This document shows, one piece after another, positions 2,124 to 56,203 of a DNA stretch of 64,000 bases. The position numbers were made by a program, and so were the translations under genes. The stretch is taken from the NCBI GenBank assembly GCA_028286365.1, contig JAQBRR010000002.1, forward strand, positions 168,165-232,164, written 5' to 3'. The notes beneath the pieces were generated by a model. That model was not told where the DNA came from. It did no database searches and saw only the letters and a program-made list of their open reading frames with translations. The first letter of the stretch is position 1, and each line of letters starts with the position of its first letter. Origin of the DNA: Candidatus Saccharimonadota bacterium (GTDB lineage Bacteria; Patescibacteriota; Saccharimonadia; Saccharimonadales; Saccharimonadaceae).

Positions 2124-2129
2124 ATCATT

Positions 2130-2157
2130 ACTATAGCGTGCTTTACGATTTTTCGAA
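2130..2157 (-). promoter_or_regulatory. Leaderless promoter for the MFS gene
   Basis: On the minus strand, TTCGAA (2152-2157), a 16-base spacer, then TATAGT (2130-2135). The six bases 2124-2129 separate the -10 box from ATG, placing the expected +1 on the A of the start codon. It lies inside the 3' end of upp. Confidence 0.5.
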
Positions 2158-2799
2158 CTTTTCGCCGTAGCTGATATCACCTGCATCACCGAGTCCTGGC
2201 ACAATAAAGAATTGTTCGTTAAGTTCAGGATCAATTGTTGCAGTATATAGTGTAATGTTTGGAATGTTTTTCTGTAGAAAATCGACGGCTGGCTGGCTGA
2301 CAATAACGCCACTGACAAATACCTGCGTAGGCTGGCCATATTCGAGGAGTTTATTATATATATCAACGATTGTTGTGCCGGTCGCAATCATCGTATCAGC
2401 AATAATGAGTGGTCGACCGTTAAGATTTGGTGATGATGAGTAACCTATAACGCTCTCCATGACGCCCACTTTGTTTAGTTGGCGGTGTGCGGCTATAAAT
2501 GCACTATCGGCATCGTCAAATATCTGGAGGAACCCAGTATATGGAGGTAGTCCAGCGCGAATGATGGTCGCGATAACGGGTTGTACAGCCAGTACGTTAG
2601 TCTCTGCAGTAGTGAGCGGTGTATGCGCCTGATTTTTAGAATAAGCTAGTTCTTTACTAATTTCATAGGCCGAAATTGCGCCAATGCGCTCAAGATTTTG
2701 TACAAATCGCTTACGATCTTTTTGTATATTTGTATCACGAATTTCGTGGAGGTATTGCTGCAGTACGGAAACATTTTTGGACAAATTAACAATCTTCAT
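2143..2799 (-). CDS. upp: Uracil phosphoribosyltransferase
   Basis: Converts uracil plus PRPP to UMP in the cytosol (pyrimidine salvage). The 218-residue protein has the PRPP-binding loop IADTMIATGTT near residue 134 and the uracil-binding C-terminal GLGDAGD near 202, both diagnostic of Upp. Length matches the family (about 208). It sits between ndh and an MFS gene rather than with the pyr genes, so this cell has both salvage and de novo routes to UMP. The start has either a short AGGA element or a -10-like TATTAT ending 6 bases upstream. Confidence 0.95.
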   Translation of the reverse strand: MKIVNLSKNVSVLQQYLHEIRDTNIQKDRKRFVQNLERIGAISAYEISKELAYSKNQAHTPLTTAETNVLAVQPVIATIIRAGLPPYTGFLQIFDDADSAFIAAHRQLNKVGVMESVIGYSSSPNLNGRPLIIADTMIATGTTIVDIYNKLLEYGQPTQVFVSGVIVSQPAVDFLQKNIPNITLYTATIDPELNEQFFIVPGLGDAGDISYGEKFEKS

Positions 2800-2805
2800 G
2801 TTCCT

Positions 2806-2811
2806 ATAATA
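2806..2811 (-). promoter_or_regulatory. Possible -10 box for upp
   Basis: TATTAT on the minus strand ends 6 bases before the upp ATG. No convincing -35 or TG extension is seen, and the intervening AGGAAC could instead act as a Shine-Dalgarno sequence on a transcript from ndh. Confidence 0.3.
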
Positions 2812-2828
2812 ACCCAGTGAGACTCTTT

Positions 2829-4007: not shown

Positions 4008-4042
4008 AAAATGATCCTGTTTATGTTTTGTCCTATAAACGT

Positions 4043-4071
4043 ATAATAGGGCTAACAGAGTTAATAATCAA
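4043..4071 (-). promoter_or_regulatory. Promoter for ndh
   Basis: On the minus strand, TTGATT (4066-4071), 17 bases, TATTAT (4043-4048). Read on the plus strand the same place gives TATAAT (4042-4047), which could serve cyoA but lacks a good -35. Confidence 0.55.
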
Positions 4072-4132
4072 GCCAGACTAGTGTTTGATGTTTGTGCAAT
4101 ATAACCGAACTAAGCTATCATGTAGTAAGCAT

Positions 4133-5053
4133 ATGCGTAAAGATAGAAAACGTAACTTCAGACGAGCTGGACAGGCCATTCTCTCTAGCCTTGTCGCTGT
4201 CATTATTGTCACTGTTCTTGTGTTCGTAACTCACGGTAGGGATATACCTGTACTTAATCCACATGGTTTGATTGCTGATCAGGAACGCAATTTGATCCTG
4301 CTGACGGTTGGTCTAGGGCTTATTGTTGTCATTCCTGTATTTATTATGTTGTTTTCGATTGCGTGGCGATATCGAGCAAGTAACACCAAGGCGAAGTATC
4401 AGCCTGACTTCGCAAGCCACAAAGGTATCGAAGCACTTTGGTGGGGCCTACCCTGCGTCATTATTCTTATTTTAGCTATCATCACCGGTATTTATACGCA
4501 TGCACTGGATCCATTCAAGCCAATTGATTCATCAGTAAAACCAGTTCAGATTCAAGTTGTTTCACTTCAGTGGAAGTGGCTATTTATTTATCCTGATCAA
4601 AAAATCGCAACGCTTAACTACGTTAATATTCCTAAAGATACGCCAATTAACTTTACGATTACATCCGATGCGCCAATGAACTCGTTTTGGGTACCAGCAC
4701 TTGCTGGCCAAGTTTACGCGATGTCAGGCATGTCGACACAACTTCATTTGATGGCCGATTCGGTTGGATCGTACACGGGCTCATCGGCTAATATTAGCGG
4801 AGACGGCTTTGCTGATATGCATTTTAAGGTCAACTCAATGAATGAATCTGACTTTGCTACATGGGCAAAAAAGACATCAATAGCCAGCCAGTCGCTTACG
4901 AGCAGTAGTTACGATGGGCTTGCAAAACCTAGCCATGATAATTCAGAGTCGGCGTATGTGCTGGGCGACGGTAGCCTGTATAATGAGGTTATAATGAAGT
5001 ATATGTCTCCAGATGCCGAGGGTAGTATGAATATGTCTGGATCAGGAATGTAA
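4133..5053 (+). CDS. cyoA: Cytochrome o ubiquinol oxidase subunit II
   Basis: Membrane subunit with a cupredoxin-like outer domain. Hydrophobic segments lie near residues 15-33, 55-75 and 96-118, followed by SLQWKWLFIYP and the DAPMNSFWVPALAGQVY region of quinol oxidases. The CuA-binding Cys pair of cytochrome c oxidases is missing (ANISGDGF stands at that place), so the electron donor is quinol and not cytochrome c. ATG 4133 (MRKDRKRNF) is preferred; ATGs at 4085/4088 are in frame but would add an unusual N-terminus, and a TATAAC box at 4100-4105 lies downstream of them. There is no lipobox Cys. It overlaps cyoB by one base (TAATG). Confidence 0.93.
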   Translation: MRKDRKRNFRRAGQAILSSLVAVIIVTVLVFVTHGRDIPVLNPHGLIADQERNLILLTVGLGLIVVIPVFIMLFSIAWRYRASNTKAKYQPDFASHKGIEALWWGLPCVIILILAIITGIYTHALDPFKPIDSSVKPVQIQVVSLQWKWLFIYPDQKIATLNYVNIPKDTPINFTITSDAPMNSFWVPALAGQVYAMSGMSTQLHLMADSVGSYTGSSANISGDGFADMHFKVNSMNESDFATWAKKTSIASQSLTSSSYDGLAKPSHDNSESAYVLGDGSLYNEVIMKYMSPDAEGSMNMSGSGM

Positions 5054-7023
5054 TGTTTAGCAATCTTTCCCAGATTATTTTTGGCCGATTAACACCTTCA
5101 GATTTTGTGCACGATCCGATTATGGCGGGCGCAGGCTATGCGATGATTGCTGCTCTGGTCTTGGTTATTATCGGTCTTACCTATTTTAAGAAGTGGAAAT
5201 GGCTGTGGCGTACTTGGATTACTTCACTTGATCCGAAGAAAATCGGTGTGATGTATATTATTGTCGCTGTTATTATGTTACTTCGAGGACTTGCCGACGC
5301 GCTGCTACTGCGAACTCAGCAGGCGACAGACGGTTCAGCAGGAATTCTTACCTCCGATCACTTCCAGCAGATTTTTTCGGCTCATGGCACAATCATGATT
5401 TTCTTTGTTGCGATGGGGATAATCTTTGGAATCTTTAATTTGATTATTCCGACGCAAATTGGCTCACGTGATGTTGCCTTCCCCTTTCTTAACTCAGTAA
5501 GTTTCTGGTTGTTTGCAGCGGGTATGATTCTTATCAATGCGCCACTCATTGTTGGTGAGTTCTCGACTGCGGGATGGCTCGCGTATCCGCCACTCTCGGA
5601 ATTGCAGTATAGTCCAGGTGTTGGTGTCGACTATTGGATATGGAGCCTTCAAATCGCAGGTATCGGTAGTCTTCTTTCAGGAATCAACTTCTTTGTGACG
5701 ATTATTAAAATGCGTGCGCCTGGCATGAAACTTATGATGATGCCGATTTTTGTGTGGAGTGCGCTTGCAAGTACAACGCTCATTATGTTTGCCTTTCCTA
5801 TTCTGACCGCAACGCTCGGGATGCTATCGCTTGATAGGCTTTTGGGAATGCACTTCTTTACCTCAGGTGCGGGTGGCAATCCAATGCTCTATATAAATCT
5901 CATTTGGGCATGGGGGCATCCTGAGGTCTATATTCTCGTACTTCCAGCGTTTGGAATATTTTCTGAGGTGGTGGCGACCTTTTCGGGTAAAAAACTGTTC
6001 GGCTATAAGTCTATGGTGGTTGCCCTTGCGGCCATTACTTTCCTGTCGTTTACAGTTTGGCTACACCACTTCTTCACTATGGGAGCGGGCGCTGACGTCA
6101 ACACATTCTTTGGGATTATGACTATGGTTATTGCAATTCCGACGGGGGTAAAAGTCTTTAACTGGATCTTTACGATGTATCGTGGACGAGTACGATTTAC
6201 GACGCCGATGCTCTGGTTTATGGGCTTTATTGTGACATTTACGCTCGGCGGTCTCGCGGGAGTGCTGATGTCTGTGCCACCAGCCGACTTCCAATTCCAT
6301 AACAGTTTATTCTTGGTCGCACACTTTCACACAATGATTGTTGGAGGAGTATTGTTCGGTGCCTTTGCGGGATTTGCCTACTGGTTCCCAAAGTTCACAG
6401 GCTTTACGCTTAATGAAAGATTAGGTCGGTATGCATTCTGGTTATGGATCGTCGGATTCCTACTTGCCTTTATTCCACTCTACATTCTAGGATTCATGGG
6501 AGCTACTCGCCGACTTGATCATTATGACCCATCACTTGGTTGGCAAGGTCTCTTTATTGTTGCTGGAGTTGGCGTGCTGATTATTTGTGCAGGCGTTGGT
6601 CTTCAAATACTGCAGCTCATCGTTAGTATTGTAAAACGCAACGAAAATCGTGTCGGTAATGACCCCTGGAATGGTCGGACCCTCGAATGGTCAATTGCCT
6701 CACCGCCACAGGAATATAACTATACCGTCATACCGACGGTTACTCATCGTGACGAATTCTGGGAAATGAAAAGAAGACACCATGTCGTTAAGCCTGAGTA
6801 TACTGATATCTGGCTGCCTAAAAATACTGGTGCTGGGGTTATTGTCGGACTGTTCGCTTTGATATTTGGTGCGGCAATTATTTGGCATATTATATGGCTT
6901 GTGATTGTCGGACTCGTTGGGGTGATTATTACGTTAATTATCAGGTTGACGAATGATGAGACCGAGGAAAAATTGACCGCCGCTGAAGTTGCCAAGCGAG
7001 AATTAAAAAGGCAGATAGCATGA
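5053..7023 (+). CDS. cyoB: Cytochrome o ubiquinol oxidase subunit I
   Basis: Catalytic heme-copper subunit, 656 residues, which reduces O2 to water and pumps protons. It carries AWGHPEVYILVLPAFG (CuB histidine cross-linked to tyrosine), WLHHFF (two CuB histidines) and VAHFHTMIVGG (heme histidines), and belongs to the A-type family. Length and the extra N- and C-terminal helices match CyoB. It is translationally coupled to cyoA (TAATG) and to cyoC (ATGA). Confidence 0.97.
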   Translation: MFSNLSQIIFGRLTPSDFVHDPIMAGAGYAMIAALVLVIIGLTYFKKWKWLWRTWITSLDPKKIGVMYIIVAVIMLLRGLADALLLRTQQATDGSAGILTSDHFQQIFSAHGTIMIFFVAMGIIFGIFNLIIPTQIGSRDVAFPFLNSVSFWLFAAGMILINAPLIVGEFSTAGWLAYPPLSELQYSPGVGVDYWIWSLQIAGIGSLLSGINFFVTIIKMRAPGMKLMMMPIFVWSALASTTLIMFAFPILTATLGMLSLDRLLGMHFFTSGAGGNPMLYINLIWAWGHPEVYILVLPAFGIFSEVVATFSGKKLFGYKSMVVALAAITFLSFTVWLHHFFTMGAGADVNTFFGIMTMVIAIPTGVKVFNWIFTMYRGRVRFTTPMLWFMGFIVTFTLGGLAGVLMSVPPADFQFHNSLFLVAHFHTMIVGGVLFGAFAGFAYWFPKFTGFTLNERLGRYAFWLWIVGFLLAFIPLYILGFMGATRRLDHYDPSLGWQGLFIVAGVGVLIICAGVGLQILQLIVSIVKRNENRVGNDPWNGRTLEWSIASPPQEYNYTVIPTVTHRDEFWEMKRRHHVVKPEYTDIWLPKNTGAGVIVGLFALIFGAAIIWHIIWLVIVGLVGVIITLIIRLTNDETEEKLTAAEVAKRELKRQIA

Positions 7024-7604
7024 AACAAATTGCAGATGATGTGGCTGTGAGAGACAAGAAAACACTGGGCTTTTGGATCTACCTGATGACCGACTGTGTA
7101 CTATTTGCAGCTCTTTTTGCAACTTTTGCGGTACTTCATACGAGTACATTCGGTGGTCCAACGGGCGCCAAGCTTTTCGATTTGCCATTCGTGCTCATTG
7201 AGACGATGATACTTCTAACGAGTAGTTTTACAATTGGACTCGCAGTCTTAGGTAGTGCACGAGGCTTCAAGAAACAAACTCTTATTTGGCTGGTTATTAC
7301 CTTCGCGCTCGGCGCAGCGTTCCTGACACTAGAACTAACTGAGTTTAGTCATCTTGTAGCGGATGGTAATGGTTGGGATAGAAGTGCTTTCCTGTCTTCG
7401 TTCTTTACACTTGTGGGTACACACGGACTCCATATTGCAATCGGTCTTTTGTGGCTCATTGTGATGATCATTCGATTATGGAGGTTTAATTTTAAGCAAA
7501 GTGACCTTAATCGCCTTGCGCTATTTGGCCTGTTCTGGCATTTCCTTGATATCGTATGGATATTTATTTTCAGTATTGTCTATCTAATCGGGGGCATGTC
7601 ATGA
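7020..7604 (+). CDS. cyoC: Cytochrome o ubiquinol oxidase subunit III
   Basis: A 194-residue protein with five hydrophobic segments. The start KTLGFWIYLMTDCVLFAALF and the motif GTHGLHIAIGLLWL are typical of heme-copper oxidase subunit III in quinol oxidases. It stabilises subunit I. It overlaps cyoB and cyoD by four bases each (ATGA). Confidence 0.95.
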   Translation: MKQIADDVAVRDKKTLGFWIYLMTDCVLFAALFATFAVLHTSTFGGPTGAKLFDLPFVLIETMILLTSSFTIGLAVLGSARGFKKQTLIWLVITFALGAAFLTLELTEFSHLVADGNGWDRSAFLSSFFTLVGTHGLHIAIGLLWLIVMIIRLWRFNFKQSDLNRLALFGLFWHFLDIVWIFIFSIVYLIGGMS

Positions 7605-7966
7605 AAATAAATGTAGAACAGAGGGATTCATCGACTCGTTATATTTCGTATGTCGTTGGATTTATCCTGTCGATTGTTGCGACCGTACTCGCTTACTTGA
7701 TTGTTGTTAATCATGTCTGGCCAATGGCAACTCTGGTGTACGTTATTCTCGCTATCGCTGTTATTCAATTGGTTACTCAGGCGGTCTTTTTCCTTCATAT
7801 TGGACGAGGTAGCCGCTGGAAGCTCGTTACGTTCGCATTCGCAATTCTTATCGTACTGATTATCGTTATTGGGACACTCTGGATTATGAATAATCTTAAT
7901 TACAATATGACGCGTATGACACCAGACCAGATGCTACTGTACATGAAGCAGAACGAAGGAATTTAA
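7601..7966 (+). CDS. cyoD: Cytochrome o ubiquinol oxidase subunit IV
   Basis: A small three-helix membrane protein of about 121 residues. VWPMATLVYVILAIAVIQLV and the following FFLHIG are characteristic of CyoD. It assists assembly of the oxidase. The ATG at 7601 overlaps the cyoC stop (ATGA); the frame opens upstream but that part is cyoC sequence. Confidence 0.93.
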   Translation: MKINVEQRDSSTRYISYVVGFILSIVATVLAYLIVVNHVWPMATLVYVILAIAVIQLVTQAVFFLHIGRGSRWKLVTFAFAILIVLIIVIGTLWIMNNLNYNMTRMTPDQMLLYMKQNEGI

Positions 7967-8838
7967 TGGAACGACGGTCTCGTTCGTACTTTCAATTGAT
8001 TAAACCCGGCATAACTCTCAGCAATACGCTGACTGGTATAGCTGGATTTTTCTTGGCAGCAAGTGGAATTATTGCGCCATTCAAATTAACTGCGTTTATA
8101 GGCGTGGCCTTGGGCATTGCCTTGATTATTGCATCGGCCTGCGTTGTTAATAACGTTCTTGATCGCAAGATTGATAAGCGTATGAAACGAACCGCAAAAC
8201 GCGACGTCGCGAGCGGAGTGATTAGTGTACCAAAAGCGCTACTATTTGGCGGTGTGCTTGGTGTAGCAGGCTTTATTATTATTCTCGCTTGGACTAACCC
8301 ACTTACCTTTTTGCTTGGCGTCATTGCCTATCTTTGGTATATCGTTGTGTACGGCCTCGCTAAGCGAACCACAGCGCTTAGTACGATCATAGGTGGAGTT
8401 GCAGGGGCACTCCCCCCTGTCGCCGGATACACTGCGTTAACAGGACATATCGATATGGCCGCAATCCTCTTATTTTTAATCCTCTTCTTTTGGCAAATGC
8501 CTCACTTTTACGCGATTGCTATGTTTCGGATGTCAGATTACGCCAGTGCGAAACTTCCCGTTTGGTCGGTGAAATATGGTATGAAGAGCACCAAGCGACA
8601 GATTCTCATCTTCGCTATTTTGTATGCGATTACCGCAACCCTTTTAACATTCTTTGGTTATACTGGGGTCGTTTATTTCGTAGCGAGTATAGCGCTTTCG
8701 ATCTATTGGTTGTCTCGAGGCATCAAGTTTTACAATAAATTAGATGATATAAAGTGGGCTCGAAAAATGTTCGGAGCATCTCTTCTTGTACTACTGTCTG
8801 TGTGTTTGTTGATTGCCGTGAGTGGCTACTTGCCATAG
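7966..8838 (+). CDS. cyoE: Protoheme IX farnesyltransferase (heme O synthase)
   Basis: Membrane UbiA-family prenyltransferase of 290 residues that adds a farnesyl group to heme B to make heme O for CyoB. The Asp-rich substrate motif NNVLDRKIDKRMKRT near residue 62 and the second loop YASAKLPVWSVKYG near 192 are present, with about nine hydrophobic segments. It overlaps the cyoD stop by one base. No heme synthesis genes are visible here, so the heme B source is unknown. Confidence 0.95.
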   Translation: MERRSRSYFQLIKPGITLSNTLTGIAGFFLAASGIIAPFKLTAFIGVALGIALIIASACVVNNVLDRKIDKRMKRTAKRDVASGVISVPKALLFGGVLGVAGFIIILAWTNPLTFLLGVIAYLWYIVVYGLAKRTTALSTIIGGVAGALPPVAGYTALTGHIDMAAILLFLILFFWQMPHFYAIAMFRMSDYASAKLPVWSVKYGMKSTKRQILIFAILYAITATLLTFFGYTGVVYFVASIALSIYWLSRGIKFYNKLDDIKWARKMFGASLLVLLSVCLLIAVSGYLP

Positions 8839-8840
8839 TG

Positions 8841-8846
8841 TATACT
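8841..8846 (+). promoter_or_regulatory. Possible -10 box for the small membrane gene after cyoE
   Basis: TATACT, directly preceded by TG, ends 6 bases before ATG 8853. The six bases AAGGTT could alternatively work as a weak Shine-Dalgarno sequence for the cyo transcript. Confidence 0.35.
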
Positions 8847-8852
8847 AAGGTT

Positions 8853-9113
8853 ATGGTTATTCTTATTCACGTCATCATCGCACTCACAAGCATCGTTATT
8901 GCGAGTCTTGCATTCTTAAGACCAACAATGAAAAAGCTTCTCGTAAGTTATGGATTTATTTTCGCGACAATTGCGACAGGTTCGTATCTTTTGGTGACTA
9001 TCCCAAGTCATATTCTTGAGAGTTGTTTAACAGGTCTGTTTTATCTGACAGTCGTTTCAATGGCAACAATCGCCACACACGTTCGATTGCGCCGCGCTGA
9101 GAATACTCTTTAG
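8853..9113 (+). CDS. Small three-helix membrane protein, unknown function
   Basis: An 86-residue hydrophobic protein with probable helices at residues 1-20, 28-46 and 52-72 and a basic C-terminus (RLRRAENTL). I do not recognise the family. It lies 14 bases after cyoE on the same strand and may be an accessory to the oxidase, but only position suggests this. ATG 8853 is chosen because the open frame further upstream lies inside cyoE. Its stop overlaps the stop of the convergent gene by 3 bases. Confidence 0.65.
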   Translation: MVILIHVIIALTSIVIASLAFLRPTMKKLLVSYGFIFATIATGSYLLVTIPSHILESCLTGLFYLTVVSMATIATHVRLRRAENTL

Positions 9114-20616: not shown

Positions 20617-20645
20617 TTGTCTGGGTCTCCCATCTCTTGTATGCT
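20617..20645 (+). promoter_or_regulatory. Promoter for purA
   Basis: TTGTCT (20617-20622), 17 bases, TATGCT (20640-20645). Transcription is expected near 20652, about 5 bases before the purA ATG, so the AGAGG at 20646 would not be in the mRNA. Confidence 0.6.
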
Positions 20646-20656
20646 AGAGGTAGTAT

Positions 20657-21955
20657 ATGGCAGTAGACGTAATTGTTGGACTTCAGCGCGGCGACGAAGG
20701 TAAGGGTCGCTTTGTTGATATTGCAGCAAAAGATTATGATATTATTGCTCGTTTTAATGGTGGTAATAATGCAGGACACACGGTCGTTCTCGCAAATGGC
20801 GACGTACTCAAACTTCACTTAGTCCCCTCTGGTATCGCTCACGCTGGTGTCGTTAATATCATTGGCAATGGCACGCTCGTTAACCTTGAAAAACTTGTCG
20901 AAGAGATCGCGAGCATAGAGGCTAAGGGTATTACCGTTACGCTTGATAATTTGAAAATTAGCTCAAGCGCACATCTTATTATTCCGAGTCATATTTACGA
21001 TGACGAGATTCGTGAAGCTGGCGAAGCACGCCAAGGTAGTACTAAATCCGGTATTGCTCAGGTATCAGCAGCCAAGGCACTTCGTATTGGCGTTCGCGCG
21101 GAGATGCTTAAAAATGATCCTGAAGGCCTTAAGACTGCAATATATGATGCATTGATGGTCCAGAAACCACAACGCGCTATCGCCGGCTTACCTGCAATCG
21201 ATGAACGAAAGATTGCTGATGAATATGTTGATAGCACAAAGCATTTAGCTGATTTTGTGACTGATACGGTTGTCTATGTTAACGACGCGCTTCGTGCAGA
21301 AAAACCTGCACGTGTTCTCGCTGAAGGTGCACAAGCATTCCTACTCGATATTGATCACGGTATGTATCCATACACGACATCCACCTCGACGACATCTGGC
21401 GGTGTTGCCTCAGGGCTCGGCATTGCACCATCGTTCATCGGTAAAGTTACTGGTGTTGCGAAGGCTGTCCAATCACATGTTGGCGGCGGCCCATACATAA
21501 CAGAAGTTACTGACGAAGCTGAACTTGCGAAACTTCATGGTGATATGACAACAGTTGATGCTGAATATGGCACAACAACAGGGCGCAAGCGTCGTCTTGG
21601 CTATCTTGACTTGCCGCAAATTCGACGCGCAAATTTGATTAATGGTACAAATGAGGTTATCTTGTCAAAAGTTGATTGGGTCCCCCGTTATGGTGACACT
21701 ATTAAGATTTGTGTTGCCTATGAAAAAGATGGTCAACGCATTGAAATTGCGCCTGATTCTGCAATTGCAATTGAACAGTCCACACCAATCTATGAGTCAC
21801 TACCAGCATGGACAGATGATATTCAGGGTATCCGAAATTTTGGCGACTTACCAAAAGAGGCTAAAGAGTATGTTGAATTTATTGAGAAAAAACTTGACGT
21901 AAAAGTTGCAGTTTTAGGTGTTGGCCCCGACCCGGATCAGATTATTATTCGCTAG
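20657..21955 (+). CDS. purA: Adenylosuccinate synthetase
   Basis: 432-residue GTP-dependent enzyme joining IMP and aspartate, the first step from IMP to AMP. It has GDEGKG at residues 12-17, NGGNNAGHTV near 35, STKSGIAQVSAAK near 129 and GTTTGRKRRLGYLD near 305. The usual QWGDEGKGK reads QRGDEGKGR, with the catalytic Asp and Lys kept. It starts at ATG 20657 with a very short predicted leader and is followed by a HAD hydrolase with its own promoter. Confidence 0.96.
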   Translation: MAVDVIVGLQRGDEGKGRFVDIAAKDYDIIARFNGGNNAGHTVVLANGDVLKLHLVPSGIAHAGVVNIIGNGTLVNLEKLVEEIASIEAKGITVTLDNLKISSSAHLIIPSHIYDDEIREAGEARQGSTKSGIAQVSAAKALRIGVRAEMLKNDPEGLKTAIYDALMVQKPQRAIAGLPAIDERKIADEYVDSTKHLADFVTDTVVYVNDALRAEKPARVLAEGAQAFLLDIDHGMYPYTTSTSTTSGGVASGLGIAPSFIGKVTGVAKAVQSHVGGGPYITEVTDEAELAKLHGDMTTVDAEYGTTTGRKRRLGYLDLPQIRRANLINGTNEVILSKVDWVPRYGDTIKICVAYEKDGQRIEIAPDSAIAIEQSTPIYESLPAWTDDIQGIRNFGDLPKEAKEYVEFIEKKLDVKVAVLGVGPDPDQIIIR

Positions 21956-21957
21956 CT

Positions 21958-21966
21958 TGCTATACT
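21958..21966 (+). promoter_or_regulatory. Leaderless extended -10 promoter for HAD hydrolase
   Basis: TGC-TATACT, with TATACT at 21961-21966 and exactly six bases to ATG 21973. The -35 is weak. Confidence 0.55.
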
Positions 21967-21972
21967 GATTAT

Positions 21973-22638
21973 ATGGAAGCGATTATTTTTGATATGGATG
22001 GTGTGATCGTCGATAGTGAGCCTCTCAATGATGCGCACATGAAGGCACATCTCGTTGAACTAGGCGCCGATCTTGAAAATAAACCATTCCAACCTCGTCG
22101 TGGTCTAACAACGTATGCAACGTGGGAGATATTGAGGGCTGAGTACGAGTTAGAACATGAGATTACATACCTCGTAGAGCGAGGACGTAAACGCTATATG
22201 GAATTTCTTGATACGCTTGAGGAAATTCCGATTATCGATGGAGTTCGAGAATTACTAACGTCTCTTCAGAATGCTCATTACCGCATAGGTCTTGCATCAT
22301 CTGCAAACCCAAAGCGGATTGCTTTCTTCCTCGATAAACTTCAACTTACAGATATTTTCGAAGTTGTTGTATCGGGTGATGACGTAGAACATGGTAAACC
22401 AGCACCAGATTGTTACCAGCTCGCTGCTAAAAAATTAGGTGTCGATCCTAAAGATTGTGTGGTAATTGAAGACGCTACCTTCGGCGTTCGCGCAGCTAAA
22501 AGTGCGGGTATGAAATGTATTGGCTTTGCCGGTATGCCTGAAAACGACCAAGATTTATCGGAGGCTGATGTGATTATTGCTGATTTTTATAAGGTAGCAA
22601 ATTTCGTCAAAGACGGCGGACGACTGTTAGACTTGTAG
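21973..22638 (+). CDS. HAD-superfamily hydrolase, beta-phosphoglucomutase-like
   Basis: 221 residues. Motif I FDMDGVIVDSEP (Asp7/Asp9), a helical cap domain at about 18-80, motif II ASSANPKR near 114, motif III Lys in HGKPAPDCY near 144 and motif IV VIEDATFGVRAAKSAG near 162. All HAD catalytic residues are present. It most resembles the beta-phosphoglucomutase/2-deoxyglucose-6-phosphatase group, but substrate cannot be assigned. It overlaps the purL stop by 12 bases in convergent orientation. Confidence 0.88.
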   Translation: MEAIIFDMDGVIVDSEPLNDAHMKAHLVELGADLENKPFQPRRGLTTYATWEILRAEYELEHEITYLVERGRKRYMEFLDTLEEIPIIDGVRELLTSLQNAHYRIGLASSANPKRIAFFLDKLQLTDIFEVVVSGDDVEHGKPAPDCYQLAAKKLGVDPKDCVVIEDATFGVRAAKSAGMKCIGFAGMPENDQDLSEADVIIADFYKVANFVKDGGRLLDL

Positions 22639-29938: not shown

Positions 29939-31072
29939 TTATATCGAAATTGCCTTTCGTGCGGCTCGGGCACGCTCACGCGCCTCTTCAATTGTTTTGC
30001 CAGTTGATGTTATGTGGCCCATTTTGCGGTCAATCTTGGTTGGTGACTTGCCATACAGATGAACGCTTGTTTCAGGGATCGATAGTGCTTCATTCAGGCC
30101 TTCAAGGATTGTTGGACCGTCACGCTCACCTAGTATATTGATCATAACGGCTGCGGGGACGACCATGCTAGTATCGCCTAAAGGCAGACCACTAATCGCA
30201 CGAATGTGCTGTTCAAATTGCGATGTTCGCGAAGCCTCGGTCGTGTAGTGACCAGAATTATGGACACGTGGTGCGATTTCATTGATGAGGATTTTGCCAG
30301 ACTTAGTCAGGAACATCTCAATACCGAATGTGCCAGCACCTTGAAGTAGTTCTGCGACAGAATTAGCAATATCGAGTGCCTTCTTGTGGATGTCGTTACT
30401 GACGGGTGCAGGTGCTAATACTTCAATACAAATATTACGTTCATGGATAGTCTGCACGAGTGGATAGAGCGCAATATCATCATTCATACTACGAGCGACC
30501 ATAACGGCTAGTTCTTTTTCAAATGGAATGAATTGTTCAGCATACAGGGGTGTGCCAGCAAATTGCTCAAACGCTTTTTTGATATCTTCATCAGACTCCA
30601 CAACCATATTGCCACGGCCGTCGTAGGCACCCAGGCGAGTTTTGATGAGCATCTTACCGTCGAATTGCTTCAGTGCTGCACGGGCATCTTTTTCTGACTC
30701 GATACCGACAAATGGCGCAACAGGAATGCCTGCGCTATCAAGGAATTCTTTCTGGAATAACTTGTCCTGAATGATGCGGATAATTTCAGGTGATGGATTG
30801 ACAGGTTTACCAAGTCGTTCGATTTGTTGCAATTCATTTACATCCAAGTGTTCGATCTCAATCGTAATAAAGTCCGATTTTTCGGCAAGTTCATGAAGTG
30901 CGACGGAATCGTACAGATCACCGACGATTTCCTCAGCACCGACCTGGGCTGCAGGGCTCCCAGGTGTCGGATTAACCACGACCACGCGAAAGCCAAGTGG
31001 TAATGCGGCAAGGGTCAGCATTCGTCCCAACTGGCCACCTCCGATAATTCCAATAGTCTTTTGAGACTCCAT
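29939..31072 (-). CDS. purK: N5-carboxyaminoimidazole ribonucleotide synthase
   Basis: 377-residue ATP-grasp enzyme that carboxylates AIR with bicarbonate. The N-terminal fold IGIIGGGQLGRMLTLAA is diagnostic; ATP-grasp residues are in KTRLGAYDGRGN near 147 and the metal site in NEIAPRVHNSGHYTTEA near 262. A -10 box TACAAT ends 7 bases before the ATG, so its mRNA is nearly leaderless. It is divergent from purC, which encodes the enzyme two steps later. Confidence 0.95.
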   Translation of the reverse strand: MESQKTIGIIGGGQLGRMLTLAALPLGFRVVVVNPTPGSPAAQVGAEEIVGDLYDSVALHELAEKSDFITIEIEHLDVNELQQIERLGKPVNPSPEIIRIIQDKLFQKEFLDSAGIPVAPFVGIESEKDARAALKQFDGKMLIKTRLGAYDGRGNMVVESDEDIKKAFEQFAGTPLYAEQFIPFEKELAVMVARSMNDDIALYPLVQTIHERNICIEVLAPAPVSNDIHKKALDIANSVAELLQGAGTFGIEMFLTKSGKILINEIAPRVHNSGHYTTEASRTSQFEQHIRAISGLPLGDTSMVVPAAVMINILGERDGPTILEGLNEALSIPETSVHLYGKSPTKIDRKMGHITSTGKTIEEARERARAARKAISI

Positions 31073-31079
31073 GCCACTT

Positions 31080-31140
31080 ATTGTAGCCTATTATCTCCGT
31101 AAACAGAACAGTTCAACAGGGTATTTTTATCTGATACGCT
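31080..31140. promoter_or_regulatory. Divergent purK/purC promoters
   Basis: Minus strand: TTCTGT (31103-31108), 17 bases, TACAAT (31080-31085), 7 bases to purK ATG. Plus strand: TTCAAC (31112-31117), 17 bases, TACGCT (31135-31140) with a TGA extension, 10 bases to purC ATG. The purC -35 lies in GTTCAACA, which also occurs between purD and carA. Confidence 0.5.
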
Positions 31141-31150
31141 AAATGGTAAA

Positions 31151-32122
31151 ATGAAGGTAATGACTACAAATGCTATCAGCACGACTGATTTTGAATTTCC
31201 AGAACAAACAAAGGTGTATCACGGCAAGGTTCGTGACGTCTACACAATTAATGATGACATTCTTGTCGCCGTAGCAACAGATCGTATTTCTGCTTTTGAC
31301 GTTATTCTCCCCCGTCCAATTCCATTTAAGGGTCAAGTGCTCAACCAACTTGCCGAATACTTTCTGAATAAAACAACGGACATTTTGCCTAATTGGTTAA
31401 TTAGTGTGCCTGATCCAAGCGTCAGTATTGGTCACAAATTAGAGCCATACAAAATCGAAATGGTTGTTCGTGGTGGTTTGGTTGGCCACGCTGCGCGTGA
31501 ATATAATGATGGTAAGCGTGAGCTCTGTGGAGTTGCAATGCCCGATGGCCTGCAGGAATACGACATGTTCCCTAGCCCGATTATTACACCATCAACCAAG
31601 GCTGATGCGGGCCATGACGAGGATATTTCAGCCGAGAAGATTATTGAGACTGGTCTTGCGACTACGGATGAATTTGTAAAGTTGTCTGATTATGCCTTAC
31701 AGTTATTTGCTCGCGGCCAAGAACTCGCGCGTGAACGCGGACTAGTCCTAATGGATACTAAGTATGAGTTTGGTAAGAATGCTCACGGCGAGATTTATGT
31801 CATTGATGAGATCCACACACCTGATTCATCACGTTATTTTTACGGGGATACTTATGATGCATATCTTGCTGATCGCACCCAGGAACAACCACGTCATCTA
31901 TCAAAGGAATTTGTTCGTGAATGGTTAATGGAGCGAAACTTCAGCGGACAGACCGGTGAAACGATTCCTGAAATGACCGATGAGTTCGTCACGCAAACAT
32001 CTGATCGTTACATTGAGTTATTTGAACAGCTCAGCGGCCAGACATTTGAACGACCAAGTACTGATATTGATCCAATCGAACGAATTAAAACCAACGTCAC
32101 CAATGCACTGAAAGGCTTATAA
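31151..32122 (+). CDS. purC: Phosphoribosylaminoimidazole-succinocarboxamide synthase
   Basis: 323 residues, the longer form of SAICAR synthetase. It has VYHGKVRDVYTINDD near residue 19 (ATP loop), VATDRISAFDVILP near 37, EMVVRGGLVGHAAREY near 105 and LMDTKYEFGKN near 197. It joins CAIR and aspartate. ATG 31151 fits the upstream promoter (about 4 bases of leader); an in-frame ATG at 31160 is possible. It is followed immediately by purB, the next enzyme. Confidence 0.94.
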   Translation: MKVMTTNAISTTDFEFPEQTKVYHGKVRDVYTINDDILVAVATDRISAFDVILPRPIPFKGQVLNQLAEYFLNKTTDILPNWLISVPDPSVSIGHKLEPYKIEMVVRGGLVGHAAREYNDGKRELCGVAMPDGLQEYDMFPSPIITPSTKADAGHDEDISAEKIIETGLATTDEFVKLSDYALQLFARGQELARERGLVLMDTKYEFGKNAHGEIYVIDEIHTPDSSRYFYGDTYDAYLADRTQEQPRHLSKEFVREWLMERNFSGQTGETIPEMTDEFVTQTSDRYIELFEQLSGQTFERPSTDIDPIERIKTNVTNALKGL

Positions 32123-33532: not shown

Positions 33533-33964
33533 CTACTGAACTATGTCGTCGTCGAGCTCGGGTGCTTGCTTCCATCCCGCAACAAGTGATACCTGATACA
33601 AGAAATTGTCAAAGGCTACATCATTATTAATTGATACATCCTTCTCTGCACTAATCCATTCGTTTTTGGAACGGCCTCTAATAAGGACTAGATCACTTAT
33701 AGGTTTTTTGAATACTTTGACGCGTTTATCTGTATTAACTCCAGGACCTCGATATTGAACTTGTAGAGGCTCATCATCCTGCCTCTTAATGACAATCATT
33801 GATTCGCTAATATCAACGTCCAGTCTTGTTTTGTCTTCTCTGTGTTCTCTAAGTGCATTTAATTGCACAATTTTCTTATGGAGTGGTACACCCATATCTA
33901 AAGAACCTATCTGTAAATCACTAAGATTATGAGACTTAAAAGAGTATCCTTCCGATTCAATCAT
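33533..33964 (-). CDS. 143-residue soluble protein, unknown function
   Basis: A mixed alpha/beta, mostly polar protein without signal peptide or membrane segment. I do not recognise any domain. Its promoter is the cleanest in the window (TTGCTT, 17 bases, TGA-TATAAT) and the -10 ends exactly 6 bases before ATG 33964, so the mRNA should be leaderless. It is monocistronic between purB (convergent) and purN. Base composition is more AT-rich near the start. Confidence 0.65.
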   Translation of the reverse strand: MIESEGYSFKSHNLSDLQIGSLDMGVPLHKKIVQLNALREHREDKTRLDVDISESMIVIKRQDDEPLQVQYRGPGVNTDKRVKVFKKPISDLVLIRGRSKNEWISAEKDVSINNDVAFDNFLYQVSLVAGWKQAPELDDDIVQ

Positions 33965-33970
33965 ATCTAT

Positions 33971-33999
33971 ATTATATCACAAATAGATATATAAAGCAA
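33971..33999 (-). promoter_or_regulatory. Consensus leaderless promoter
   Basis: Minus strand: TTGCTT (33994-33999), 17 bases whose last three are TGA, then TATAAT (33971-33976), then six bases to the ATG. The surrounding bases are AT-rich. Confidence 0.75.
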
Positions 34000-46820: not shown

Positions 46821-47720
46821 CTAGCGTAGAAGATGCTCGAGGAGTGCCATTCTGACCAGCACGCCGTACTTAGCCTGCTTGAAATAAACAGCCTTAGGCG
46901 ACGAATCGACTTCAGTCAATATCTCATCTACTCGAGGCAAAGGATGCATAATAATGGCATTTGGTTTCATTTTTCCTGTCATCTCAAGGTCGATTTGATA
47001 ATAGCCTTTATATTTTTTGTATTCTTCTTCGGTCGCAAAGCGTTCTTTTTGGATACGAGTTTGGTAAATAACGTCAACAATACCGACAACTGACGAAAGA
47101 TCATCAGTCTCGTGATAGGTTACGTTGTGCTTGTCGAGATAGTCCTTGATATCCTGACCAACTTCGAGTGCTTTTGGTGCGACAAAATAAATTGTCACAT
47201 CTGTATATTTGCCGAGTAGATACGAAAGTGACCGAATTGTGCGACCGTGTTTAAGGTCACCAACCATTGCAATACTAACTCCATCAACCTGGCCGTGCTC
47301 TTTTTGAACCGTATACAGATCAAGCAGAGCTTGGGTTGGGTGTTGTCCAGGCCCGTCGCCAGCGTTAACGACAGGAATATCAGATACTGCAGCTGCTTTC
47401 GCTGCAGTGCCTTCTTCGTAGTGTCTTAGGACGATAACGTCACTGTAAAAGTTAATGACCTTAATGGTGTCTTCGATCGTTTCGCCCTTGGCAGCTGATG
47501 AAAACTCTTTAGCGTTCTCGGTCGTTATAACGCTTCCACCAAGGCGAAGCATGGCAGACTCGAACGAGAACCTCGTTCTGGTACTTGGCTCGTAGAATAA
47601 CGAAGCCATAATCTTACCTTCAAGCGTATTCTCGGGCTTTTTTTCGAGTTCATCCGCTCGACTAAATAATGAACCAATGAGTTCCGGGTCAAGATCCTGT
47701 GAGTCTATTAAGTGCTTCAT
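46821..47720 (-). CDS. pyrB: Aspartate carbamoyltransferase, catalytic subunit
   Basis: 299 residues; joins carbamoyl phosphate and aspartate. It has FYEPSTRTRFSFESAMLRLGG near 44, NAGDGPGQHPTQALLDLYT near 119, MVGDLKHGRTIRSL near 153 and MHPLPRVDEI near 259. No regulatory PyrI is seen. An extended -10 TGC-TATAGT ends 8 bases before the ATG (minus strand 47729-47737), so it can be expressed separately from the GreA-like gene upstream. Confidence 0.96.
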   Translation of the reverse strand: MKHLIDSQDLDPELIGSLFSRADELEKKPENTLEGKIMASLFYEPSTRTRFSFESAMLRLGGSVITTENAKEFSSAAKGETIEDTIKVINFYSDVIVLRHYEEGTAAKAAAVSDIPVVNAGDGPGQHPTQALLDLYTVQKEHGQVDGVSIAMVGDLKHGRTIRSLSYLLGKYTDVTIYFVAPKALEVGQDIKDYLDKHNVTYHETDDLSSVVGIVDVIYQTRIQKERFATEEEYKKYKGYYQIDLEMTGKMKPNAIIMHPLPRVDEILTEVDSSPKAVYFKQAKYGVLVRMALLEHLLR

Positions 47721-47728
47721 ATACTTTT

Positions 47729-47737
47729 ACTATAGCA
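47729..47737 (-). promoter_or_regulatory. Extended -10 promoter for pyrB
   Basis: Minus strand: TGC-TATAGT with 8 bases to the pyrB ATG, giving a leader of about 2 bases. Confidence 0.5.
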
Positions 47738-50422: not shown

Positions 50423-50425
50423 TTC

Positions 50426-51424: not shown

Positions 51425-51425
51425 C

Positions 51426-52100
51426 TTACTTTGCCTCTAGTTTGTAACCAAAGCCACGGATTGTGTGTATCATATCCGTCTTATAAGGAGCATCAATCTT
51501 GGTTCGTAGGTATTTAACATAGACCTCGACTGTATTTGGCAAAATGTCAGAGTCATAATCCCATACGTGACTAATAATCACATCTTTACTGATAGGTCGT
51601 CCTGGATTACGCATCAGGTATTCTAGGAGTGCAAACTCTTTGCTGGTAAGGCTAATTTCGTCCCCTGCTCGCCTAACGACATAACTCAGTGTATCGAGGG
51701 TAAGGTCACCAACAGTAAGTAGTGTTGACTGTTGTTCAACTGGGCGACGTAAAAGTGCACGAACGCGGGCAAGTAGCTCTTCGAGAGCAAATGGCTTAAC
51801 CAGATAATCATCTGCACCACTATCAAGACCCTTCGTGCGATCACGCACGTTGCTCATTGCGGTTAGTAATAGGACTGGTGTGTGTATTTTTGCCTCACGC
51901 ATTGCTTCTACGATAGCAAGCCCATCATATTCACCAGGGATCATACGGTCAATAATTGCGACATCGTATGGTTCAGTCGTTGCCATTGCGTAGCCATCGT
52001 CACCGTCGTAGGATACGTCGACAGCGTAGCTTTCCTGTTCCAATGCCTTCTTAAGGGCACCAGCAATTTTGTGTTCGTCTTCGATAATTAAAACTCTCAT
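51426..52100 (-). CDS. OmpR/PhoB-family response regulator
   Basis: 224 residues: receiver domain with acidic pocket IIEDEH, phosphorylated Asp51 in AIIDRMIPGEYDG, Thr in LLLTAMS and Lys in LVKPFALEEL; C-terminal winged helix with TSKEFALLEYLMRNPGRPISKD and VYVKYLRTKID. It is first in the order regulator-kinase-permease-ATPase. A TATTAT box ends exactly 6 bases before the ATG. It most likely controls the ABC genes. Confidence 0.94.
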   Translation of the reverse strand: MRVLIIEDEHKIAGALKKALEQESYAVDVSYDGDDGYAMATTEPYDVAIIDRMIPGEYDGLAIVEAMREAKIHTPVLLLTAMSNVRDRTKGLDSGADDYLVKPFALEELLARVRALLRRPVEQQSTLLTVGDLTLDTLSYVVRRAGDEISLTSKEFALLEYLMRNPGRPISKDVIISHVWDYDSDILPNTVEVYVKYLRTKIDAPYKTDMIHTIRGFGYKLEAK

Positions 52101-52106
52101 ATACCT

Positions 52107-52112
52107 ATAATA
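52107..52112 (-). promoter_or_regulatory. Possible leaderless -10 box for the response regulator operon
   Basis: TATTAT on the minus strand, six bases (AGGTAT) before the ATG. No clear -35 is visible. Confidence 0.35.
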
Positions 52113-52140
52113 TAACTCTAAGCTGAGAGAATACTGAAAT

Positions 52141-52461: not shown

Positions 52462-52466
52462 AGTAT

Positions 52467-52499
52467 CTACACTATACATTGTGTAGTGATTTTTGTCAA
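52467..52499 (-). promoter_or_regulatory. HxlR promoter with overlapping operator
   Basis: Minus strand: TTGACA (52494-52499), 17 bases, TATAGT (52471-52476), then 9 bases to the ATG at 52461. The palindrome CTACAC-N8-GTGTAG (52467-52486) lies over the -10 and part of the spacer, a typical autorepression arrangement. Confidence 0.7.
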
Positions 52500-52567
52500 A
52501 GTAATTGATTGTTTTTATCCGTAGTGGACACTTACTGAAGAATTAAAATCTTAAAACAAGCTGAGCA

Positions 52568-52616
52568 AAGGTCCGTCCTCTGCACAGTTAATTTTAAGCA
52601 AAGAGAGGACTATTTT
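52568..52616 (+). other. Repeat copy and possible terminator hairpin in the HxlR/perM gap
   Basis: Bases 52568-52584 are the inverted copy of 43469-43485 (17 bases identical). Part of it, GTCCTCT (52575-52581), pairs with AGAGGAC (52604-52610) followed by TATTTT, so a small RNA could end here. No promoter for such an RNA was identified. Confidence 0.35.
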
Positions 52617-52650
52617 GAAATTTGTTATTTAGTTATATCAGTTAAAAAAA

Positions 52651-52659
52651 TGATATACT
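52651..52659 (+). promoter_or_regulatory. Leaderless extended -10 promoter for the AI-2E-type permease
   Basis: TGA-TATACT (TATACT 52654-52659), exactly six bases before ATG 52666. The gene is first on its strand, so a promoter is required here. Confidence 0.6.
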
Positions 52660-52665
52660 AGCCTC

Positions 52666-53796
52666 ATGAAAACACGTATTGATATTGATACACACGTATT
52701 TGTTCGATTTTGGTTGGTTATTGTTGGTCTTGGGCTGGTTGCGCTCGCTATTTATAGTGCTCGTGTCGCACTACTTATTTTAGGCATCTCCCTATTCCTT
52801 GCCTTAGCACTTAATATTCCTGTATCAAAAATTGCTCGCAGGCTTCCCGGTAAAAGCCGCGTCGGCGCGACGGCAATATCATACCTGGTCGTTATCGTGC
52901 TACTGGGAGCAGTTATTTTCTTAGTCATTCCTCCAATCGTGCAACAGACTGCGAAGTTTGCTCAAACCGTACCAACAATTGTTGATCACGCAACTACCCA
53001 GGTGCACGCTCTTAAAGACTTTATCGCTAAGTATCACCTCCAGCCACAGGTTGATCAGGCCGTAAAATCTATTAACCAAACTGCGTCGTCATGGGCTGGT
53101 AGTGTCGGTCAGAATGTTTTAAGCGGTATTGGCTCTGTCTTTAGCTTCTTTACAGCCACGATTTTGATCCTCGTACTCACCTTCTTGATGCTCGTTGAGG
53201 GGCCATCATGGGTCAAGCGATTTTGGAGCGTCTACAGTAACGAGCCACGCATGATGAAACACAAGGACGTCGCTGGACGCATGTACGGGGTATTCACTGG
53301 TTATGTAACAGGCCAGTTAACAGTATCTGCGATTGATGCCACAACTGCTGGTTTGATGGTGTTTGTCCTTAGTTTTATATTCCCGATTATTCCTGCAAGT
53401 CTTGCAATGCCAACTGCGGCGATCGCCTTTGTACTTTCACTGATCCCAATGTTTGGTGCGACGATTGGTGGCATTATAATCACCCTTTTGCTTGCCTTTA
53501 ACAGTGTACCCGCGGCAATTATTTATGTTATCTACTTTGTTATTTACCAACAGGTTGAAAATAATTTCATTGCGCCACACATTCAGTCAAAGAAGATTGA
53601 TTTATCTGCGCTTGCGGTCCTTGGTTCTGTGACGATTGGGCTGTACGTCTTTGGTATCGTAGGTGGTATTATTGCAATTCCGATTGCAGGTGTCGTTAAG
53701 ATCTTAATAGAAGAATATATTGATGCTCACAAGAAGCGACATGCAGCTGACGATGATAGTGAAAAACCTACGAGAGCCGTAAAACTCGAAAACTAA
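52666..53796 (+). CDS. AI-2E family transporter (PerM/UPF0118)
   Basis: 376 residues with about eight helices: two pairs at the N-terminus, a soluble segment (about 95-145), then the conserved LSFIFPIIPASLAMP and LSLIPMFGATIGGIIITLL blocks and a C-terminal basic tail. The family includes exporters of the signal AI-2 and proteins of the sodium/proton antiport kind; function here is open. It stands alone, divergent from HxlR and convergent with cysS. Confidence 0.87.
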   Translation: MKTRIDIDTHVFVRFWLVIVGLGLVALAIYSARVALLILGISLFLALALNIPVSKIARRLPGKSRVGATAISYLVVIVLLGAVIFLVIPPIVQQTAKFAQTVPTIVDHATTQVHALKDFIAKYHLQPQVDQAVKSINQTASSWAGSVGQNVLSGIGSVFSFFTATILILVLTFLMLVEGPSWVKRFWSVYSNEPRMMKHKDVAGRMYGVFTGYVTGQLTVSAIDATTAGLMVFVLSFIFPIIPASLAMPTAAIAFVLSLIPMFGATIGGIIITLLLAFNSVPAAIIYVIYFVIYQQVENNFIAPHIQSKKIDLSALAVLGSVTIGLYVFGIVGGIIAIPIAGVVKILIEEYIDAHKKRHAADDDSEKPTRAVKLEN

Positions 53797-53802
53797 ACTC
53801 TT

Positions 53803-55206
53803 TTAGTTAACATATTCCCAGATACTGCCATGCGGTGTATCTCGAATTGCAATACCAAGGCTAACGAGTTCATCGCGCAAACGATCTGACTCTTTCCAGT
53901 CCTGATTATCACGCGCATGTTGTCTTTGTAATATTAAGCGCTTAGCATCGTCATCAATGTCGGGTGTAGATTTTATTAACTCAATACCCAGCGTCTCATC
54001 TATCATCTCGAGCAGTTCCGTCAATGCATGCTGGTGTATATCTTGAAGTTGGGACGATACTAGTCTCGAGAAGGCTTCATCAATGATCGTAAGTCCAGCA
54101 GGCGTATTAAGATCATCATTCAGTGCCTCTAGTAGGGCCTGTGAGGTTGCATAAAGCGAGACTGACTTGTCAGCGCTACTCTTCTTGTCATCGTCCTGTA
54201 GGGTGTCGTGTGTCTGGTGACGAAGTGCTGCAATATTACGCCAGTTATTCATGCGATTCTTTGCCGCGTCAAGGTTCTCGAATGTAAAGTTTATTGGCGA
54301 ACGGTAGTGAGACTGAAGCATAAACAAACGGATCGCTATAGGATCGTAACCCTTTTCGATAACTTCACGAATGGTATAAAAATTGCCTGCGCTCTTGGCC
54401 ATTTTCTCGCTATCAATCGTGAGGAAACCTGTGTGCACCCAATAGCCAACCATCGGCATCTTACCTGATATAGACTCCATTTGCGTGATTTCTGCCTCGT
54501 GATGGGGAAAAATAAGATCGACTGCTCCACCATGTACGTCGTACTGTGGACCAAAGAAATGTTCAGTTATCGCTGTATCCTCGATATGCCAACCAGGTCG
54601 TCCAGCACCAAATGGCGCATCCCAGACAGGTTCACCAGGTTTAGAGAACTTCCATAGGCAAAAATCATTCCAGCCGCGCTTATCATCGCTTTCGTCAATA
54701 CGCGTCCTAGCATCATCCTTTTGTACTTCACTACGACCAGACAACTTGCCATATTCAGGGAAAGTTGAGATTTCAAAATAGATGCCGTCATTGTTAATTG
54801 TGTAGGCATGCCCGTTATCGATGAGTCTCGTCACTTGGCTGATGATATCGTCAATGTAATCAGTCGCTCGAGCATATTCAGTCACAGAGGTGTTGTTAAG
54901 GCTCGTCATATCTTTGATGTATTCATCCTGAAACGACGCGCGTAGTTCTTGCCAGTCTATATTTCGTTCAGCTGATCGGATGATGATCTTATCGTCAATG
55001 TCGGTAATATTTTGTAGGTAAAACAACTCATAGTCATTTGCGCGAATGACTCGTGCCAGTACGTCCATTTGAACGTAAGTCTTGGCGTGTCCTAAGTGGG
55101 AGAGATCATAGACGGTTGGACCACAGACGAACAAATTTACTTTACCTTCTTGTCTTGGTGTAAAGTCTTCGACTTTTTTTGTGAGGGTATTATGCAGTCT
55201 GAGCAT
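53803..55206 (-). CDS. cysS: Cysteinyl-tRNA synthetase
   Basis: 467 residues, class I synthetase: LFVCGPTVYDLSHLGHAKTYV (HIGH motif as HLGH near 39) and KMAKSAGNF (KMSKS motif near 262). Zinc in this family is held by two Cys, a His and a Glu. The first Cys (near 28) and the HHEAE region are present, but the second Cys in GWHIECSAM is Asp here (GWHIEDTAI). It overlaps the stop of the DHH gene by 17 bases. Confidence 0.95.
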   Translation of the reverse strand: MLRLHNTLTKKVEDFTPRQEGKVNLFVCGPTVYDLSHLGHAKTYVQMDVLARVIRANDYELFYLQNITDIDDKIIIRSAERNIDWQELRASFQDEYIKDMTSLNNTSVTEYARATDYIDDIISQVTRLIDNGHAYTINNDGIYFEISTFPEYGKLSGRSEVQKDDARTRIDESDDKRGWNDFCLWKFSKPGEPVWDAPFGAGRPGWHIEDTAITEHFFGPQYDVHGGAVDLIFPHHEAEITQMESISGKMPMVGYWVHTGFLTIDSEKMAKSAGNFYTIREVIEKGYDPIAIRLFMLQSHYRSPINFTFENLDAAKNRMNNWRNIAALRHQTHDTLQDDDKKSSADKSVSLYATSQALLEALNDDLNTPAGLTIIDEAFSRLVSSQLQDIHQHALTELLEMIDETLGIELIKSTPDIDDDAKRLILQRQHARDNQDWKESDRLRDELVSLGIAIRDTPHGSIWEYVN

Positions 55207-56188
55207 TTTCTTGGTCCTTTAAGGCTTTATCTGTCGCGTCAATTAGTTCTGGGATTATTTTATCAATAGATTCATAGACACGAAAGCCTGATGCGTATGG
55301 GTGTCCCCCGCCACCAAAGAAGCCTGCAATAGTCGTCGATATCGGCAGATTACTGCGTAATTTACCCGTTAGCTTGCCGTCTGGATATGTTTTAATGGCG
55401 ACACCAATCTCGACACCTTCGACTAAGCGCATTTCGTCGAGAACCAAAACACTTGGGTTGTATTGATCACTATATTGTTGGATTTCTTCCCACGGAATGC
55501 GAATAACTGCTAATTTGCCGTCTAAGTAATATTCAATACGTTCAATAAGAACACCTTTGTATTTCAGTATTTCTGCCGATTTTTTCATAAATTCACGACG
55601 ACGTTCTTCGATTGATGCTGGAGATGCGCCAAGTGCAGCAAGCTTACTCGCAACGAGATACGCTGATTCTCCGACGTTTTGTGTCGACAGACCCAAAGTG
55701 TCTGAAAGTAATCCAGCAAGTAAGTCTTCGGCAGCTTGCTTGTTAATTTTCCAGCCATGCTTTTCTGCAATTTTATAAATCACCTCAGTGCTTGACCCTG
55801 CTTCTTCGACAACGAGAGTATGGTCAAAGCTCAGCGTAGACTCGGTCTCATGATGATGATCGATGACCAATACTGGATGTGTTTCCAGGAAGTGTCGTAC
55901 GCCTGGAATCTGTAGGGCTTTGCCAATCAATGTATCGCTGCTGGTATCGACAATAATTACAAGATCAACTGATGTATCGAAATCTTGGGATACACGGTCC
56001 CAGCCATTAATATAGCGAAGATATTTAGGCGTTTCTACGTCGCAGTAGAGCGATATAGCCTTACCTAAGTCGCCGAGAATTTCTTCAAGGGCAAGAGCAC
56101 TTCCAAGCGAATCGCCATCAGGATTTTCGGCCTGGATGACAAGGATTTTTTGAGCAGAATCAATCAGCTCTTTTGCTTTATCGAACAT
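55190..56188 (-). CDS. DHH-family phosphoesterase (NrnA-like)
   Basis: 332 residues. The N-terminal DHH domain has AENPDGDSLGSALALEEIL near 20, VIIVDTSSD near 78 and VIDHHHETE near 110; the C-terminal DHHA1 domain has FFGGGGHPYASGFRV near 292. This matches NrnA-type enzymes that degrade very short RNAs and 3'-phosphoadenosine phosphate. An extended -10 (TGA-TATACT) ends 6 bases before the ATG. Confidence 0.9.
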   Translation of the reverse strand: MFDKAKELIDSAQKILVIQAENPDGDSLGSALALEEILGDLGKAISLYCDVETPKYLRYINGWDRVSQDFDTSVDLVIIVDTSSDTLIGKALQIPGVRHFLETHPVLVIDHHHETESTLSFDHTLVVEEAGSSTEVIYKIAEKHGWKINKQAAEDLLAGLLSDTLGLSTQNVGESAYLVASKLAALGASPASIEERRREFMKKSAEILKYKGVLIERIEYYLDGKLAVIRIPWEEIQQYSDQYNPSVLVLDEMRLVEGVEIGVAIKTYPDGKLTGKLRSNLPISTTIAGFFGGGGHPYASGFRVYESIDKIIPELIDATDKALKDQENAQTA

Positions 56189-56194
56189 GTACCA

Positions 56195-56203
56195 AGTATA
56201 TCA
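56195..56203 (-). promoter_or_regulatory. Leaderless extended -10 promoter for the DHH gene
   Basis: Minus strand: TGA-TATACT (TATACT 56195-56200), then six bases to the ATG at 56188. Confidence 0.55.

Follow-up and report, generated by a model that had tools for sequence, protein, structure and literature searches.

Extended -10 promoters abutting the start codon and predicted leaderless expression at about a third of genes in a Saccharimonadia genome

Known leaderless systems and the boxes of the analysed window

Leaderless genes are established for Actinobacteria and Deinococcus, as an earlier note on the DNA described here had stated (Zheng et al., 2011, PMC3160421; PMC12340547). In Deinococcus-Thermus, a TANNNT box is situated about 6-7 bp before the start in approximately a third of genes, and a separate class of Shine-Dalgarno (SD) genes exists alongside the leaderless ones (PMC12340547; Zheng et al., 2011, PMC3160421). 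About 20% of actinobacterial genes are TA-led, with TANNNT near the start, and are mixed with SD genes (PMC3160421). PMC9581028 cites leaderless genes of M. tuberculosis and gives 21.6% as the portion of bacterial species for which leaderless transcription was predicted in the GeneMarkS-2 survey.

The genome considered here resembles Deinococcus-Thermus in the distance of the box from the start (about 6-7), in the share of genes involved (about a third) and in the presence of a separate SD class, but it differs in that its box is fuller (TATAAT, TATACT or TACAAT), usually carries TGn and is known from sequence alone, and in that the host is a member of Patescibacteria with a genome of 0.85 Mb and 44% GC. 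With Actinobacteria it shares the mixture of TA-led and SD genes, being distinguished by a box more informative in its middle positions, by mid-range GC content and by its affiliation to another phylum. No account of leaderless expression in Saccharibacteria, Patescibacteria, CPR or TM7 came out of a search of the open-licence literature, the mentions being reference lists or a remark on YchF; leaderless expression is a known kind of expression, and its extensive use in Saccharimonadia appears, within the scope of this search, to be unreported.

The genome comprises 850,738 bases in two contigs, and the window, i.e., the whole stretch of 64,000 nucleotides that was analysed, corresponds to positions 168165-232164 of the second contig (G000:C2). 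The protein encoded by its nrnA (DHH) gene is 93% identical to a protein from a Patescibacteria MAG, other matches falling mostly within 63-87%, and its closest relatives come largely from genomes labelled Candidatus Saccharibacteria, Saccharimonas or Patescibacteria; based on these names and identities, the organism is a saccharibacterium. The earlier note had drawn attention to eight genes in which a -10-like hexamer ends exactly 6 bases 5' of ATG, four of them having TGn ahead of the box, and to a second set with 7-11 bases. All eight were verified base by base and TGn was found in four (HAD, 143-aa, AI-2E and DHH), while in the second set the distance amounts to 7 for purK, 8 for pyrB, 9 for the 56870 gene and HxlR, 10 for purC and 11 for carA, purA and the glycosyltransferase (those of purC and carA were taken by reading the sequence). 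In window coordinates, the features are as follows.

2121..2135, minus strand: MFS transporter (Pfam MFS_1); TATAGT, 6 nt, ATG at 2123
2797..2811, minus strand: upp, uracil phosphoribosyltransferase (Pfam UPRTase); TATTAT, AGGAAC, ATG at 2799
8841..8855, plus strand: 86-aa gene; TATACT, AAGGTT, ATG at 8853
21958..21975, plus strand: HAD hydrolase (Pfam HAD_2); TGC TATACT GATTAT ATG, start 21973
33962..33979, minus strand: 143-aa gene; TGA TATAAT ATAGAT ATG, start 33964
52098..52112, minus strand: response regulator (Pfam Response_reg); TATTAT AGGTAT ATG, start 52100
52651..52668, plus strand: AI-2E family transporter (orthologues); TGA TATACT AGCCTC ATG, start 52666
56186..56203, minus strand: DHH/NrnA-type phosphoesterase (orthologues); TGA TATACT TGGTAC ATG, start 56188
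31070..31085, minus strand: purK; TACAAT, 7 nt, ATG
47718..47737, minus strand: pyrB-like gene; TGC TATAGT, 8 nt, ATG
31132..31153, plus strand: purC-like gene; TGA TACGCT, 10 nt, ATG
20640..20659, plus strand: purA; TATGCT, 11 nt, ATG
62583..62605, minus strand: glycosyltransferase gene; TGC TATAAT, 11 nt, ATG

The six bases between box and ATG in upp, the 8853 gene and the response regulator had been suggested as a possible weak SD; they are rich in purines, but need not be SD sites, because purines 3' of the box typify the whole class.

Several other traits of the window were observed along the way. Genes resembling those of cytochrome bo oxidase (cyo) were recognized by eye at 4085-8838, the first of them (start 4133) having a weak box at distance 11. 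The segment 20657-62585 contains many purine and pyrimidine genes (purA, purC, purK, pyrB, carA and others), exceeding in number what we expected for a host-dependent saccharibacterium. At 40486-42615, a minus-strand gene of 709 aa lies within DNA of 55% GC vs 44% around it, has a signal-peptide-like N-terminus and a strong SD (AAGGAGG), is without Pfam match and is possibly an acquired gene or encodes a surface protein.

Distance between box and start codon over the genome

Gene calling relied on a home-made dicodon model, and start codons were picked by coding signal only, so that upstream sequence had no influence on predicted starts; this resulted in 832 genes for the whole genome, 772 of them outside the window. 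Some starts are misplaced by the caller (that of the MFS gene was set too far upstream, and upp was dropped as a consequence), and these two errors act against the box signal. For the distance counts, a box was defined as TA.AAT, TATA.T or TAT.AT. Over all genes, no box ends at distance 5, while distances 6-11 account for 75, 52, 39, 26, 19 and 19 boxes, respectively, and each position beyond 11 for 3-12. Outside the window, the series is much the same (0 at 5; 70, 50, 37, 26, 19 and 17 at 6-11) over a background of 6.9 boxes per position at 12-39, which makes 70 boxes at distance 6 vs about 7 expected (Poisson p about 6e-45). If only TGn-bearing boxes are counted, the contrast becomes sharper than without TGn, with 33 boxes at distance 6 and none at 3-5. 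In the E. coli K-12 control, a box at 6-11 is found in 1 of 90 annotated genes.

Thus the genome-wide profile is not flat and peaks sharply at 6, as the earlier note had anticipated, and the fixed spacing of six bases proposed there holds as a peak, but the spacing really follows a distribution, cut off sharply below 6 and trailing off to 11. The proposal of widespread leaderless mRNAs is narrowed in the same way: distance 6 would be strictly leaderless, but genes at distances 7-11 would have leaders of some 1-5 nt.

The regions upstream of genes are rich in A (35%) and T (28%), and such composition could in principle yield TATAAT-like words by chance. We regard this explanation as practically negligible, since the 21,795 ATGs outside gene frames give no distance peak (0.27% have a box at 6 vs 9.0% of gene starts), nor do the 805 intergenic non-start ATGs, the count at distance 5 drops to zero, and the box is conserved in orthologues against a random background. 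A different reservation concerns the start codons themselves, which are predictions with a few misplaced by the caller: the promoters may be real and translation may begin at a downstream in-frame codon with SD, leaving ordinary leaders. We consider this highly improbable as a general account, because start choice ignored upstream signals, because the 361 genes with an unambiguous start (no rival start within 45 nt) peak alike, with 34 boxes at 6 and 0 at 5, and because alignments of nrnA orthologues begin with residue 1 at the predicted ATG. Nevertheless, a minor portion of the peak may consist of promoters for leadered transcripts whose true start codon is located further downstream.

Promoter features of the box, gene context and translation machinery

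An EM mixture model in which all distances had equal weight at the outset converges on TGnTATAAT at 6-11. Upon alignment by the box, T occurs in 59% and G in 67% of sequences at the TGn positions, and a weak TTG appears upstream, at a position corresponding to a 17-bp spacer. The usual transcription start lies about 7 bases 3' of a -10 box. In distance-6 genes, where this would be the A of ATG, a pyrimidine occupies position -1 in 81% of cases vs 60% in SD genes. For distances 8, 9 and 10, the seventh base after the box is A in 62%, 73% and 56%, respectively, and in distance-11 genes A is found at the eighth base (78%). Since at distances 8-10 this A keeps register with the box as the ATG recedes, the leaders there would be about 2-4 nt long; a ribosome site holds its spacing to ATG rather than to the initiator A. 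Start codons of the box class (distances 6-9, n=190) are ATG in 185 cases, GTG in 5 and TTG in none.

The same model places 262 of 832 genes (about 31%) in the box class at 6-11 and 430 in the SD class, and the two are directly seen to complement each other: SD is present in 19 of 190 box-class genes (6-9) vs 352 of 642 others. Partition between them follows gene context, the box occurring chiefly in genes that head a transcription unit. Where a gene overlaps or abuts its upstream neighbour, the box share is 3% (SD 82%); it is 56% in genes with an upstream gap of 20-59 nt (SD 28%) and 43% in divergently transcribed genes (SD 39%). Leaderless expression as a main mode, as the earlier note had put it, is therefore to be read as one of two modes, embracing about 31% of genes, the other being SD-led initiation at about 50%.

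The position of the box, roughly that of a ribosome site, its anticorrelation with SD and the presence of an encoded protein with four S1 domains also permit a translational reading, according to which the TA-rich box is no promoter and serves as an AT-rich non-SD site as in Bacteroidetes, or as an S1 site. We find it very improbable, since the box is accompanied by TGn and, at canonical spacing, by a -35-like TTG, the initiator moves with the box instead of with ATG, and the box is scarce (3%) precisely where a gene overlaps its upstream neighbour and would still need a ribosome site; an element of the Bacteroidetes type is expected to be independent of operon position. By its sequence features, then, the box is predicted to be a promoter element and not a ribosome site, and transcription initiation on the A of ATG in distance-6 genes, as had been proposed, is supported by TGn, the -35 motif, the initiator, gene context and orthologues.

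Loss of the SD machinery was considered as a cause and rejected: the 16S 3' end bears a normal anti-SD CACCTCCTT, and both IF3 and the protein with four S1 domains are present. Given these components, leaderless use would parallel SD initiation and not replace it. An alternative sigma factor was rejected as well, a single sigma-70 region-2 gene having been found in the genome.

The most probable interpretation, in which we place high confidence, is that about a third of genes are expressed leaderless or near-leaderless from extended -10 promoters abutting ATG, with SD-led initiation alongside. According to this scheme, the sole sigma-70 factor found would use extended -10 promoters of the TGnTATAAT type at about a third of genes; RNA polymerase would start some 7 bases past the box, which at distance 6 means the A of ATG itself and at distances 7-11 a point up to about 5 nt ahead of ATG, giving leaders of 0-5 nt overall. 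Such mRNAs would be too short to include an SD, and the ribosome would have to start on a 5'-terminal AUG. SD-led initiation with the intact anti-SD would be reserved for operon-internal genes and genes with longer leaders. The placement and sequence of these promoters are read directly from the genome, and we infer from them the transcript ends and the translation of leaderless messages.

Orthologues and other genomes of Patescibacteria

Among 46 distinct nrnA/DHH orthologues with the same ATG, 40 have a box at 6-11 (33 of them at 6-7), 39 of these 40 carry TGn, and an SD-like stretch accompanies the box in 2 of the 40; farther upstream, pairwise identity falls to 0.26, as in random sequence. 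All six box-less orthologues possess an SD-like purine stretch, and inspection of their sequences revealed coding-like sequence upstream reaching into the start. For the AI-2E transporter, a box at 6-7 is found in 14 of 22 orthologues and SD in 5 of the remaining 8. Judging from these alignments, box placement is under selection, and the box appears to have been exchanged for SD more than once. Upstream of nrnA, two more conserved bases (identity 0.65 each) precede TGn, forming approximately TCTGnTACAAT; they exceed the general promoter and are possibly gene-specific.

The same pipeline applied to five other Patescibacteria genomes gave a peak at 6 in all five.

G328, same family: 29 boxes at distance 6
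G109, same family: 17 boxes at distance 6
G067, same order: 16 boxes at distance 6
G049, same class, 60% GC: 16 boxes at distance 6
G032, other lineage of the phylum: 35 boxes at distance 6

The model assigns a leaderless share of 23-31% to the four genomes of the class, compared with 2% for E. coli. For G032 it is 46%, a value which is less certain, because here the SD component of the model turned into AAAAA and the box lost TGn; the fact that the model found no canonical SD motif suggests little SD use in this genome. In a crude count over 380 genomes, TATAATN6-7ATG was compared with the same words at N13-14. The class displays a 3.2-fold excess (30 of 37 genomes at p<0.01), and 195 further hand-tabulated genomes 1.8-fold, with some families near 1 (f20, f53, f61, f71 and f85). 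The crude ratio of G032 is about 1.25 despite its clear gene-anchored peak, so this count is a weak index, and a ratio of about 1 in the five families is therefore no proof of absence.

Whether leaderless or near-leaderless expression from start-abutting promoters is an old trait common to much of Patescibacteria (CPR), being one of two main initiation modes there, with genes switching repeatedly between promoter-led and SD-led states as they enter or leave operons and with terminators fused in places to the next -10 box, is a proposition for which we see evenly balanced prospects. A large and for the most part uncultured share of bacterial diversity falls to CPR bacteria, whose translation start is little understood. 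Should a third of genes prove leaderless, SD-based annotation of start codons would be unreliable in CPR; expression tools for Saccharibacteria should then use start-abutting promoters, and the small CPR ribosome would offer a natural system for studies of leaderless initiation. The same result would bear on the question of leaderless initiation as an old bacterial trait vs a repeated product of genome compaction.

At some sites, intrinsic terminators of the upstream gene merge into the -10 box of the next one in the order stem, GATTTTTGGTATAAT, ATG, and compaction of terminator and promoter is extreme there. Such fusions were observed at G000:C1 minus 109234, plus 389129 and plus 487437, and at G000:C2 plus 35575 (counted from 0 along the strand read), and 5 of the 9 detected hairpins end 20-21 nt 5' of the start codon.
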